64,000 bases of DNA from Alicyclobacillus pomorum DSM 14955 (lineage in GTDB: Bacteria > Bacillota > Bacilli > Alicyclobacillales > Alicyclobacillaceae): contig NZ_AXAR01000007.1 of assembly GCF_000472905.1 (NCBI RefSeq), positions 62,001 through 126,000 of the forward strand. Direction: 5' to 3'. Position 1 is the first letter of the stretch. Each line of letters starts with the position of its first letter. The position numbers were made by a program, and so were the translations under genes. The notes beneath the pieces were generated by a model that was given only the letters and a program-made list of their open reading frames with translations, made no database searches and was not told the origin of the DNA. Shown in pieces: positions 40,359 through 44,562 of this stretch.

Positions 40359-40899
40359 TTCCAGAGCGCTGTCATCGGTGGCGATGTGCAAGACGCCATC
40401 GATTTTGGCGCACGCGAGTGTATCCCAGTGTAAGCCATGCCCCCAACGGTGCGTTTGGACCGTTGGGGGCATGGCTTATTTCGGATGGAACACGTTGTCG
40501 GGCAGCGACTGTTGCACGGAGAGTGTGCCCGCGGCAATCGCGTCCGAGGTGAACGGCCAACTGATGTACTTCCAGAAGGGAACCCGGACGAGGAAAGCCC
40601 GAAACTTCCGCCGTTTGGAGATAGGTTTGCGATGCTGCATGGCGAGTACGTGGCTCGGGTGTCGATGGTTCCAGGAGAGAATTCGATATTCGGGCTGTCT
40701 TGCTGGATGAAGGATGATGAACATCTTCATGTAGACCCCTCCCATCGCTACGGTATTTTACTTTTCTATGTGGAATAAAATGCCAGTCCTAGATACGAGT
40801 CACACGAATTGTCGGATGGAGTCTGATTCGAGCTTGAACGTGGATAGATAGCACGAAATGGGGGAATTTAGGGGTATCAGGCAAAAGGAGGCTTCACAA
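40359..40899. other. Unassigned stretch with a palindrome and a doubtful ORF
   Basis: Apart from the palindrome at 40431-40478, the only candidate is a plus-strand frame from ATG 40485 to 40778 (97 codons; MEHVVGQRLLHGE to YGILLFYVE). Its C-terminal half (FAMLHGEYVARVSMVPGE) looks protein-like, but no SD precedes the ATG and no family is recognised. It could be a decayed gene. Confidence 0.35.
40431..40478. repeat. Perfect 20-bp-arm palindrome
   Basis: Arms TAAGCCATGCCCCCAACGGT and its exact complement around an 8-nt loop GCGTTTGG. Very stable. The right arm is followed by TTTC only, so it is a poor terminator. No similar sequence elsewhere in the window. Confidence 0.9.
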
Positions 40900-41385
40900 G
40901 TGGGATTTCGAACGTGGATGGCCTTGATGGTCCTAGGTTTCACGATTTCGGTCAGCGGCTGTGGGAACACAGGAGCCACAAATCATGCCGCCGGCTTTGC
41001 GGCAAACACCAACGACGCTGGCCTCATCCAAACAACAAGGATAGATCCAAAGACGAAGACGTTGTACCTCAAGATTGTGCGGAACCACAGTGTGAAAGTC
41101 GGCGGACCCCATGAGTCTCCAACGATTGAATATAAGGCGCAGGAGATTACCATTCCGACGGGGTGGACGGTGCGTGTGTCGGCTCGGGACAAAAACGGGC
41201 CTGTGGGTACTTCTATCGTTCGGTACCCGGTTTCTTCAAGCCTAGAACGCTATGGCACGTCCTTTACCGCCGTGAAACCAGGGCGCTATGTCGTGCTGCC
41301 AGATGCTTCTGGATCACATGGGTCTGTGTTGGATTACATCACGGTTTCGAACGCTGCAAAGGTTCCTTCCGTTTCTTCGAAGTGA
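40900..41385 (+). CDS. Putative lipoprotein of unknown function
   Basis: 161 residues from GTG 40900 (SD AAAGGAGG). The N-terminus WMALMVLGFTISVSGCGN is a lipoprotein signal with the modified Cys in VSGC. The mature part looks all-beta (EITIPTGWTVRVSARDKNG, GRYVVLPDASGSHGS), suggesting a cupredoxin- or Ig-like fold, but I see no Cys/His/Met copper set. It faces the fibre gene (convergent, 92 nt apart) and might belong to the same surface system; that is only a guess. Confidence 0.65.
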   Translation: MGFRTWMALMVLGFTISVSGCGNTGATNHAAGFAANTNDAGLIQTTRIDPKTKTLYLKIVRNHSVKVGGPHESPTIEYKAQEITIPTGWTVRVSARDKNGPVGTSIVRYPVSSSLERYGTSFTAVKPGRYVVLPDASGSHGSVLDYITVSNAAKVPSVSSK

Positions 41386-41477: not shown

Positions 41478-44381
41478 CTATCGAAACAGGACGAGAATCT
41501 GATTTGGTCCGGTTCGTTCCATGACCCTATAACCTGAACTCGCTGCCGTTGCAATTCCGTCTTCGTTGGGCATGCAATACTCGTCGACACGACACGTCCC
41601 ATCGTCTCGAACCCGAAGTTTTCCGAGAAGCCCGACGGCAACCCATTCTGGACGCTTTGACCGGGGCAGGTAATTTGTCGTGAAGTCCCAATCCGGATGC
41701 AAGATGGGTTGCGTTTCTGTGCGCTCCGGAACGATAACCTGCCCCTCCGAATCGGTAACCGCGGGTACCACGATTTCTTGATACTGCACCCTGCCCCACT
41801 CGTCCGTCAAGAACTTGTTTTTCCATCTCAACTCACCGCCGTCAGCCAAAAATGAAGAATCTGCACTGGTAATTCCGAGGATGAACTCGTCGTGACTGTT
41901 GGCTTTGCGAATTTTCGAACCTTGCAAAGTGACAAAGTAGCCGACATCGATGGGTTGCCCGGCCACAGTTTCAAACATCTCCCCATAATCCAAGCCACGT
42001 CCAAGCCACCCCTGGTCGACGTACCCTTTCCCATCGCTCGAGATTTTTGCTGCCAGACCCTTGACGTTCGAGCTGAGTCCATTTGCCAAGAACCAGGAGT
42101 ACGCCGCATCTGCATCTCCGTAGCGACCCATCACGTGTGAACCCTCGTACGCTGACGAAGTCTCGACACCCTCAACCGTGGAGGCCATTCCGAGTGCAAC
42201 GGTGCGAATGCCTTCCGCATGGGAGGCACATCCGTGTGCAGCTGTACTGACTCCTTCCGTATGCGAATACGGTCCATAGGACTTTGTCTGAAGCCCTTCT
42301 GCATGAGAAGCAGGTCCGTGTGCTTCTGTTTGCTTTCCTTGTGTGTGAGAAGCTTCTCCGCTCGCGACCGTACTGTCACCGACCGCAAAGGAATTCAAAC
42401 CGTCGGCAACGGTCTCCACTCCCGCTTGAAGACCACCTCGGAATACAGTGGTCCCGGTGACTGTCAGATTGCCGTTGACATGAAAGTCGCCGTGCAAGGC
42501 ATTGGACGTGTCTGAGCGCAAGATTTGACTGGCAGAAAGATGGCCTAACTTGCCCGCGTTGGTTGCAAAGTCGGAAGTACTTGCATGTAAGGCGGTATCG
42601 GCTACCTTGGTATGTTCCGCGTTCACTGCCGTCTCGGCTCGATTCGCATGGACTGCTGAACCTGCTTTGATGGCTGTGTCGGCATGGACCGCCGTATCTG
42701 CATGGACAGTATGCTTCGCTTTTTCAGCCGTTTCCGCACGTACAGCCGTCATGGCTGTATCTGCCGTCGTGGCGGAGTCAGCTTGGACGGCGTGGTCTGC
42801 GTGACCTGCATGGTCCGCGTTGTCCGCTGTATTGGCATGATTGGCACCATCTGCTGTCGTTGCGTGATCTGCCGTCTTGGCTTTGTCTGCGGACATCGAC
42901 GCGTCCGCGTGCAGCGCGTGGTCCGCCCTTGCCGCATGCGCTGCGTTCGTTGCCGTCTCTGCCTCGATGGCAGAATCGGCACGCAATGCATGGGCTGCCG
43001 TCCCTGCTTTGTCCGCTTGCGTTGCGGTGTCTGCGTGAACCGCACGGTCCGCCACGCCTGCACGCTCTGCGTCGGTCGCTGTGTCGGTTGTTTTCGCATG
43101 GTCTGCCTGCGCAGCGTGGTGGGCCGTTATCGCTTGGTCGGCCTGCTTTGCGTGAGACGCTTGCTCTGCGGTATCGGCTTGTAATGCATGGTCGGCATGT
43201 TTGGCACCCTCCGCATGTGCAGCAGTGTTCGCGCGGAGGGAGTGGTCTGACTTTGTCGCGTGATCGGCCTGGTAGGCTGTGTCCGCCACTGTCGCGATAT
43301 CTGCATGGTCGGCATGGCTCGCTTTGTCCGCTTCCGTCGCGATATCTGCGCGCTTGGCGTGACTGGCCTTGTCCGCCGCTGTCGCGGCATCTGCGTGTTC
43401 GGCATGATCAGCGCTTGCTGCGTGATCTGCATGTGCAGCCGTGTCTGCGTGACCCGCAATCGTCGCCGCTCCTGCTTTCACCGCGGTATCCGCGCGCAAC
43501 GCATTGTCTGCTTCTTTCGCGTGGTCAGCCCTTTTTGCCGCGTCGGCATTTCGGGCGCTGTCTGTGTGCTTCGCATGAGCGGCATCGGTTGCCGTCTCCG
43601 CAGTCTTGGCCGCATCCGCCTCCAAAGCGTGGTTAGCGGTCTTCGCGTGGTCTGCCTGCGTCGCCGCATCTGCACGTTCCGCCGTCTTCGCTGTCACCGC
43701 TTTAGCGGCGACATCCGCACGTAACGCGTTGTCTGCATTGGTCGCACTGTCGGACGTGGTTGCTGAATCGGCGTGGAGGGCAGTGTCCGCAGTCGCTGCA
43801 TGATTGGCTGTGGTTGCACTCTGGGCGGTGTCAGCACCCACTGCCCGCACGGCGAGGTCCGCCACCTTGGCGCGGTCCGCGCTCGCAGCGGATTCTGCAC
43901 GATCCGCATTCGTCGCACAGTCTGCCTTGGATGCTTCCTCCGCGTGAAGGGCATTCAGCGCACGTTCTGCATTTGTGGCCGACTCTGCACGCTCTGTATT
44001 CATTGCACGCTCTGCGGTCGCCGCTGAATCCGCACTTCTGGCACGGTCTGCCGTGGTAGCGTGTGATGCCGTCGCGGCGGTGTCCGCAGTCCGAGCCGTC
44101 TCGGCTCGCTCAGCGCGCTCTGCGTTTTTTGCGTGTTCAGCTGTATCCGCATGGGTCGCGTTTTCAGCAATGCGCACCCATTCTTCGCCGGTATCACGAT
44201 ATACGTTTCCCGACCGGTTATCTACAAACAGCCTGCCAGCCACCCCAGCTGGGGGCCTGTCTCGTGAACGTGACTCCTGAATCGAAGCGGACGTTCTGTT
44301 GTTGAACACGAAGATGCAAGAGTGATTGTTTTTGTTGCTCTTCGGTTTTTTCCCTTTTTCCTTTTTATCTGACTTCTTCAT
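41478..44381 (-). CDS. Giant Ala-X-X triplet fibre protein with YadA-like head repeats and Peptidase_G2 domain
   Basis: 967 residues. Order: a Lys-rich disordered tail (1-25), a small beta module (AGRLFVDNRSGNVYRDTG, ~45-74), 179 Ala-X-X triplets (75-611), a linker with HVNGNLTVTGTTVFRGG, seven 14-residue head-type repeats (~664-760; SHAEGLQTKSYGPY, SHAEGIRTVALGMA), and a C-terminal domain (~765-967; GYFVTLQGSKIRKANSHDEF, VGLLGKLRVRDDGTC) that fits the Peptidase_G2 chaperone that cleaves itself off tail spikes. No signal peptide or anchor is seen, and no phage genes adjoin. ATG 44381 follows GGGGAGAG. Likely a trimeric surface or spore fibre; a phage-derived orphan is possible. Confidence 0.8.
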   Translation of the reverse strand: MKKSDKKEKGKKPKSNKNNHSCIFVFNNRTSASIQESRSRDRPPAGVAGRLFVDNRSGNVYRDTGEEWVRIAENATHADTAEHAKNAERAERAETARTADTAATASHATTADRARSADSAATAERAMNTERAESATNAERALNALHAEEASKADCATNADRAESAASADRAKVADLAVRAVGADTAQSATTANHAATADTALHADSATTSDSATNADNALRADVAAKAVTAKTAERADAATQADHAKTANHALEADAAKTAETATDAAHAKHTDSARNADAAKRADHAKEADNALRADTAVKAGAATIAGHADTAAHADHAASADHAEHADAATAADKASHAKRADIATEADKASHADHADIATVADTAYQADHATKSDHSLRANTAAHAEGAKHADHALQADTAEQASHAKQADQAITAHHAAQADHAKTTDTATDAERAGVADRAVHADTATQADKAGTAAHALRADSAIEAETATNAAHAARADHALHADASMSADKAKTADHATTADGANHANTADNADHAGHADHAVQADSATTADTAMTAVRAETAEKAKHTVHADTAVHADTAIKAGSAVHANRAETAVNAEHTKVADTALHASTSDFATNAGKLGHLSASQILRSDTSNALHGDFHVNGNLTVTGTTVFRGGLQAGVETVADGLNSFAVGDSTVASGEASHTQGKQTEAHGPASHAEGLQTKSYGPYSHTEGVSTAAHGCASHAEGIRTVALGMASTVEGVETSSAYEGSHVMGRYGDADAAYSWFLANGLSSNVKGLAAKISSDGKGYVDQGWLGRGLDYGEMFETVAGQPIDVGYFVTLQGSKIRKANSHDEFILGITSADSSFLADGGELRWKNKFLTDEWGRVQYQEIVVPAVTDSEGQVIVPERTETQPILHPDWDFTTNYLPRSKRPEWVAVGLLGKLRVRDDGTCRVDEYCMPNEDGIATAASSGYRVMERTGPNQILVLFR
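42549..44159 (-). repeat. 9-nt-period coding repeat (179 Ala-X-X triplets)
   Basis: Every third codon is Ala from residue 75 to 611 without a register slip. The exceptions are about ten positions where Ser or Thr replaces Ala. A weaker 6-residue period (A-D-X-A-X-X) is superimposed. Codons vary, so the repeat is held at protein level rather than as identical DNA. Confidence 0.92.
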
Positions 44382-44532
44382 TGTTCTCACTCTCCCCAAG
44401 CAGCTTCGGCATCATATGCCTGGGCTTCGCACCAGGGGCACGGCAAAAGCCTGCACATTGGGCACTAGCGACATGAGCGATGTGCTAAATGCTACGACAG
44501 TAGGGCAGCACGACTTTGACATCATTGCAACG

Positions 44533-44562
44533 AAAAAATCCGGGCCTTCGAGGACCCGGATT
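44533..44562 (-). terminator. Terminator of azoR
   Basis: Read on the minus strand: AATCCGGGTCC / GGCCCGGATT stem followed by a T-run. It lies 54 nt beyond the azoR stop. Confidence 0.85.

Follow-up and report, generated by a model that had tools for sequence, protein, structure and literature searches.

A predicted spore-surface fibre of Alicyclobacillus pomorum with an alanine-triplet stalk and a Peptidase_G2 chaperone domain

The window analysed here, a 64,000-nt stretch of the Alicyclobacillus pomorum DSM 14955 genome, carries a gene for a long and strictly repetitive fibre-like protein. Does this fibre belong to a phage or to its bacterial host, and on what surface could it stand? The open reading frame, 41478-44381(-), comprises 967 codons and a stop, with its ATG at 44381. 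It encodes, in this order, a Lys-rich tail, an N-terminal module (N-module), a run of triplets, a short linker, a head, a stem and a Peptidase_G2 (G2) domain, and the following features can be placed on it and around it:

41478..44381, minus strand: whole gene, 967 aa, with N-module, Ala-X-X stalk, predicted YadA-type head and Peptidase_G2
44316..44381, minus strand: Lys-rich tail, residues 1-22, by sequence
44169..44312, minus strand: N-module, residues 24-71, common to this protein and a collagen-stalked relative (L156), by local score
42549..44168, minus strand: stalk, residues 72-611, 180 Ala-X-X triplets or about 90 hexads A-[DE]-y-A-[TKLAV]-y
42081..42431, minus strand: predicted YadA-type beta-roll head of 14-residue repeats, residues ~651-767, by AlphaFold2 and VIA-align
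41481..41990, minus strand: Peptidase_G2 chaperone by homology, residues 798-967, expected release product of ~19 kDa
41988..41993, minus strand: predicted scissile bond L797|D798, by alignment with 3gqh, 3suc and 6qz9
44410..44418, minus strand: candidate SigK/SigE-like -10, CATATGATG, 37 nt 5' of the ATG
44537..44562, minus strand: terminator-like hairpin 3' of the upstream oxidoreductase gene

The gene lies among housekeeping genes (SecDF-like, RecJ, RelA/SpoT, a flavodoxin-fold oxidoreductase, an amine-oxidase-family oxidoreductase, ferrochelatase and uroporphyrinogen decarboxylase). This neighbourhood contains neither an integrase nor a tail or lysis gene, and the gene is not inside a virion module, in agreement with the original prediction, which had noted that no phage gene adjoins. 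Since the terminator-like hairpin ends the upstream oxidoreductase gene, the fibre gene is probably a unit of its own. It had also been called an orphan, and within its genome this is true: a genome-wide profile search finds no second PF11962 gene, and the gene is absent from the one other genome of the same genus, its nearest genus mate. A convergent lipoprotein-like ORF of 175 aa (LGFTISVSGC) lies at 40858-41385 on the plus strand of the window and has no Pfam or PHROG match.

The most conspicuous part of the protein is its stalk, in which each third residue is Ala (170), Ser (5) or Thr (5). These 180 triplets begin at residue 72 and run to 609/611 without one slip. The original count was 179 triplets from residue 75; its register is borne out by the recount. 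In 2000 shuffles of the protein's own residues the longest such run was 21. The Ala codons of the stalk are mixed (GCG 58, GCA 55, GCC 40, GCT 17), third bases of codons at lags of 3, 6 and 18 codons match no more often than by chance, and TRF reports only two short arrays in the stalk DNA; it is thus the protein sequence that keeps the pattern, which is not a recent DNA repeat or tandem-DNA artefact.

The two residues following each Ala obey different rules. Position 2 contains 57 Asp and 1 His, position 3 contains 2 Asp and 43 His. Ala-triplet stalks are otherwise common in phage fibre ORFs, and in 17 Ala-triplet stretches from viral contigs the counts at positions 2 and 3 are 80 vs 3 for Asp, 89 vs 1 for Gly, 2 vs 33 for His and 4 vs 131 for Phe plus Tyr. 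The sequence rule of the stalk is thus not new, because many phage fibre ORFs obey the same one. Three viral Ala-triplet stalks (L061, L114 and L104) have exact 9- or 12-residue periods of Gly, Asp or Asn after Ala; they resemble nonad alpha/beta coiled coils, which may be a common phage fibre element. A 398-aa Ala-triplet ORF on the minus strand of another locus (L058) begins with an apparent signal peptide (MKKVLLALVAILFTVATNAQ), and therefore not all Ala-triplet proteins are phage fibres.

Within the stalk, when position 2 holds an acid, that of the next triplet rarely does too (12 of 79 cases, p 3.5e-12). When the residue after Ala is modelled as alternating between two states, the fit improves on independence by 44.5 log units, compared with about 10 for shuffles, the best of which reached 16. 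The states are D/E and then T/K/L/A/V, and 80 of the 95 alternation steps are exactly 6 residues, or one hexad, long. The six-residue overlay suggested originally is therefore strong, and such strict alternation defines the stalk repeat as the hexad A-[DE]-y-A-[TKLAV]-y. The two variable residues of the triplets show no acid-base pairing with each other, and Pro is absent from the stalk.

We looked for similar stalks in Bacilli with a GCN7 DNA pattern, which is palindromic and also picks up many tandem repeats and antisense collagen. Among the loci inspected, only this gene has a run that is long, varied and poor in Gly and Pro; two Ala-rich ORFs of other Bacilli (L253, L254) turned out to be low-complexity repeats instead. 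Ala triplets were counted in homologues at 75 genome loci and ~75 viral loci, and in no case did more than 7 follow in a row; the combination of an Ala-triplet stalk with a G2 domain was seen, among them, in this protein only.

What fold could such a stalk adopt? A search of PDB sequences with the stalk alone gave zero matches. A profile of triplet windows gave three: 7o92 at E 0.0054, a run of Gly, Ala and Ser in a CDC27 chain at E 0.014, and 5apz at E 2.1. The matches to 7o92 and 5apz are of low complexity, for which such E-values are weak, and 7o92 was compared by sequence and name. The former, a Giovannonibacteria protein, has three AETATK hexads, each an exact instance of A-[DE]-y-A-[TK]-y, and the latter is the trimeric alpha/beta coiled coil of Tcar0761, with MATKDDIAN nonads. 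The alpha/beta coiled coil fibre was described by Hartmann et al. 2016 (PMC4786415), who suggested a minimal version built on hexads. In each hexad three residues would be helical and three would form the beta-layer, whose central place goes to a small residue, Ala for instance; at that time this version was a proposal, neither detected as a continuous repeat nor built (PMC4786415). The stalk agrees with the hallmark of the fold, a hexad or nonad repeat with a small residue mid beta-layer, both in its hexad alternation and in its 170 Ala out of 180. We therefore tentatively take a hexad alpha/beta coiled coil as the best fold candidate, and put it no higher because E-values for low-complexity sequence are weak.

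Another reading of the stalk, one long alpha-helix per chain, in single helices or loose bundles, appears rather unlikely. AlphaFold2, run on residues 45-330 alone, returns two long helices (mean pLDDT 81), to which we give no weight because this was a single-sequence monomer run on an Ala-rich stretch. A period of 3 is unable to line one face of a helix, Thr and Asp are abundant, and i,i+4 acid-base pairing is missing. The stalk would be ~81 nm long only if alpha-helical, and ~151 nm if collagen-like.

The C-terminus, originally described as Peptidase_G2-like, matches PF11962 at residues 779-957 with E 6e-36 and 124 bits, over the curated cut-off of 25. In the PDB this domain is matched by phi29 gp12, both by sequence (E 4e-21) and by structure comparison. 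The solved C-terminal fragment of phi29 gp12 (3gqh) starts at the Asp of SDFAEYFE, which is aligned with LDYGEMFE here, placing the bond in L797|DYGE801; E801 aligns with the Glu that is replaced by Gln in uncleaved gp12 (3suc). The scissile Asp and the Glu are conserved in 92 of 92 retained homologues, a set for which the motif was required at extraction, so that two further sequences without it, from phi105 and Monoglobus, were left out. Self-cleavage at L797|D798, freeing a chaperone of ~19 kDa, is thus probable by homology; of the self-cleaving end domain proposed originally, the gp12-type domain and the conserved residues can be read directly, and the cut itself is what we infer from them. 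Distant G2 domains occur also in DUF2793 proteins on Phaeobacter and Leisingera plasmids, one of which (L286, 2314-3498) adjoins nucleotide-sugar genes.

Between stalk and chaperone, residues ~651-767 form about 6 repeats of period 14. AlphaFold2, provided with 44 homologues, predicts a regular 14-residue beta-roll head (pLDDT ~98), which VIA-align superimposes on the heads of BpaC, BoaA and YadA with Z 19-21 over 132-143 residues at 2.0-2.4 A. The head is thus predicted to be a YadA-type 14-residue left-handed beta-roll. The original expectation of YadA-like head repeats stands as regards this fold; the YadA profile proposed as its check, PF05658, has no match in the protein itself and matches its relatives L156 and L186. 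Two giant relatives in Clostridium tarantellae carry 70 head repeats in 1635 aa (L226, 93-4997) and 91 in 1959 aa (L228, 173-6049).

Several lines of evidence connect this family to spores. The 80 best genome loci, with one genome per species, are all from Bacillota and nearly all from genera known to sporulate. The host had been taken for a spore former, and this is supported by two sigma factors above the SigK model cut-off (SigK/SigE-type) and by SpoIVA in its genome. With start codons of the relatives picked by a ribosome-site heuristic, CATANNNTA is found upstream in 25 of 76 homologues, as compared with 1 antisense, 5.4 in shuffles and 17 of 149 neighbouring genes (Fisher p 2e-4); with AC at 14-18 nt the numbers are 14, 0, 1.3 and 6 of 149. 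The fibre gene's own CATATGATG is imperfect in its last base and a clear -35 is missing. SigK sites of this type are carried by bclA, with CATATGTTA, and by bclB (PMC4750369).

One relative (L290, 3982-5925, plus strand) starts with ALDPNLIGPTLPPIPSF and has an exosporium leader, LIGPTLPPI, followed by Gly-Pro-Thr collagen, head repeats and G2, on a contig that is filed as viral and may be a host flank. In Bacillus this leader docks BclA-type proteins to ExsF (PMC11952670). A second collagen-like protein with a BclA-type leader (SIGPTLPPT) lies on the same contig at ~11599 on the minus strand. The 16-kb Peribacillus plasmid p16118 (L030) carries a G2 fibre gene together with 'exosporium protein C', a collagen-like protein, a glycosyltransferase, a methyltransferase and an integrase, and on Priestia plasmids G2 genes lie near a YjcZ sporulation protein, a small acid-soluble spore protein or YheC/YheD. 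Plasmid genes are required for the exosporium of B. megaterium QM B1551 (PMC4674009).

In the A. pomorum protein the exosporium leader is absent, TIGR03720 gives nothing over its cut-off in the genome, and the F-ENA subunit DUF4183 is absent from it. Collagen-like PF01391 matches elsewhere in the genome come from both strands of one repetitive stretch and are probably not a real collagen gene; this stretch (L373, G000:C32:143500-150800) reads as collagen-like Gly-X-Y on both strands and lacks a clear gene.

The original prediction had considered a spore or cell surface filament possible, and given homologues in spore-forming lineages and SigK-like promoters, the spore surface is probably the one. 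That it stands on vegetative cells instead, as a fibre or adhesin, we hold unlikely. Glycosyltransferases and sugar epimerases among the neighbours of the relatives would suit it, being usual also by cell-surface polymer genes, but the start of the protein (MKKSDKKEKGKKPK) has by eye no signal peptide and fits assembly of a spore layer in the mother cell better than secretion, and the SigK-like promoters and the exosporium leader of relatives also speak against it.

The top match of the genome scan, a protein of Clostridium polyendosporum (L156), shares the N-module, the head repeats and the G2 domain. Its N-module aligns to that of A. pomorum with a local score of 106, the best of 500 shuffles being 39, and between N-module and head it carries 100 Gly-X-Y triplets (Pfam Collagen, 9e-46). 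Six further relatives (L158, L159, L179, L186, L196 and L203) also start with Gly-rich collagen-like stretches, that of L158 being short. The A. pomorum protein has no Gly-X-Y repeats, its third positions being held by Ala, not Gly.

The original prediction saw collagen logic in the triplets. This survives in so far as the stalk occupies the collagen slot of its best-matching relative, and not in so far as the stalk is hexad-periodic and its matches among solved sequences include alpha/beta coiled coils. In collagen, Gly at the axis is structurally required, and a left-handed triple helix of collagen type in which Ala takes the part of Gly is decidedly doubtful: an exact period of 3, distinct and constant preferences at the post-Ala positions (Asp 57 vs 2, His 1 vs 43) and the Gly-X-Y stalk in the same slot of L156 are in its favour, but collagen does not demand so strong a 6-residue alternation, the stalk has no Pro, and the PDB sequence matches include alpha/beta coiled coils. 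It is conceivable, as a bolder form of the hexad reading, that the stalk is one continuous alpha/beta coiled coil of ~90 hexads, a spore former's drop-in for the collagen rod, freed from a self-cleaving chaperone.

The phage side of the family remains to be considered. Homologues lying always inside prophage tail modules would have spoken against the original prediction, and this is not what is seen. Phage G2 proteins are located in tail modules, but the close homologues come from genomes and plasmids of Bacillota, nearly all of spore-forming lineages. The G2 tree shows the same split, in which 46 Bacillota genome or plasmid rows (45 and the query) are apart from the phage side, which consists of 8 rows only, with support 100/95. 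The row nearest to the A. pomorum domain is L156, followed by L158, and the domain does not group with the G2 domains of these 8 phage rows. Among 149 genes flanking 25 relatives, virion structural families are absent from the 25 most frequent of 80 PHROG families, the G2 family excepted, and a triplet stalk and G2 occur together in no viral relative examined. Judged by its descent and its surroundings, the fibre gene is probably not a phage gene. A search of 300 Bacilli genomes for the N-module returned only the protein itself and one prophage-like fibre (L237); since the stalk type and the N-module are also found in phage or prophage fibres, a phage origin of these parts is likely. That the gene is a relic tail fibre or spike, left alone when its prophage decayed and without a role in spores, is very improbable: matches to PHROG 4775 'pre-neck appendage', the frequency of Ala-triplet stalks among viral ORFs, the likeness of the N-module to the start of L237 and the G2 proteins of phage tail modules would agree with it, but the frame is intact and full-length, the neighbours are housekeeping genes without integrase, tail or lysis genes, and the tree, the flanks of relatives and the stalk-G2 combination all point away from phages.

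We thus consider it likely that the protein is a homotrimeric spore-surface fibre, expressed in sporulation and built like the collagen filaments of BclA type with another stalk. Against this stand the lack of an exosporium leader, the imperfect promoter of the gene and its absence from the nearest genus mate. Read from sequence are the order of domains, the hexad rule, conservation at the cleavage site, the range of hosts and the promoter enrichment; the making of such a fibre might proceed as follows. The gene would be transcribed in the mother cell from a SigK/SigE-type promoter, and the C-terminal G2 chaperone would register three chains, as in phi29 gp12. The 14-residue repeats would then fold into the predicted YadA-type head, and the 180 Ala-X-X triplets could zip into a long, straight trimeric stalk. 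The folded trimer might trigger the cut at L797|D798, where the residues are conserved, so that the ~19 kDa chaperone would come off and the head become the exposed tip. The N-module or the Lys-rich tail may anchor the fibre on the spore surface, and its likely role would be to display an adhesive tip at a distance.

If so, the fibre links the chaperones of phage spikes, the heads of trimeric adhesins and the collagen filaments of spores, three systems that are usually handled apart. The best 80 genome loci point to a family, for the most part undescribed, whose members are probably spore-surface fibres of Bacilli and Clostridia; in a limited literature search no study of this family was found. 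As a candidate for the hexad alpha/beta coiled coil the stalk is natural, very long and well suited to putting that fold to the test, and it could serve materials work as a rod free of proline and of hydroxylation.

Compared with known systems, the protein is in each case partly familiar. With the phi29 gp12 pre-neck appendage (3gqh, 3suc) it shares a homologous C-terminal chaperone, predicted to be autocleaving here too, with Asp and Glu at the scissile site; gp12, however, is a virion spike, whereas here a predicted YadA-type head and a triplet stalk precede the domain and a phage context is missing. Trimeric autotransporter heads (YadA, BoaA, BpaC) have the same 14-residue beta-roll repeats, the fold being a prediction in our case (Z ~20); unlike those autotransporters, the protein lacks a membrane anchor, belongs to a Gram-positive spore former and has G2 after the head. 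In phage fibre ORFs such as L080, L061 and L146, Asp or Gly likewise comes right after Ala and His, an aromatic residue or Asn next, but these ORFs lack G2 and are nonad-periodic (L061 and L114) or mixed. Alpha/beta coiled coils (5apz, 7o92) likewise repeat in triplets around a small central residue, though so far they are known over short lengths, 3 hexads in 7o92 and 14 nonads in Tcar0761, as compared with the ~90 hexads for which we propose the fold here.

The exosporium filaments of BclA type (BclA, F-Anchor, F-BclA) have a long trimeric stalk and a compact trimerising C-terminal end on spores, and a similar plan is proposed for this protein. It differs from them in having no Gly-X-Y, exosporium leader or C1q-like end, its end domain being a predicted self-cleaving chaperone; some G2 relatives (L290) bear the BclA-type leader as well. 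The closest comparison is that with L156, in which N-module, 14-residue head repeats and G2 follow in the same order, with 100 Gly-X-Y triplets vs 180 Ala-X-X triplets in the stalk and 17 vs ~6 repeats in the head. As a natural pair, alike in their ends and unlike in their stalks, these two proteins allow the rules able to replace collagen to be tested.
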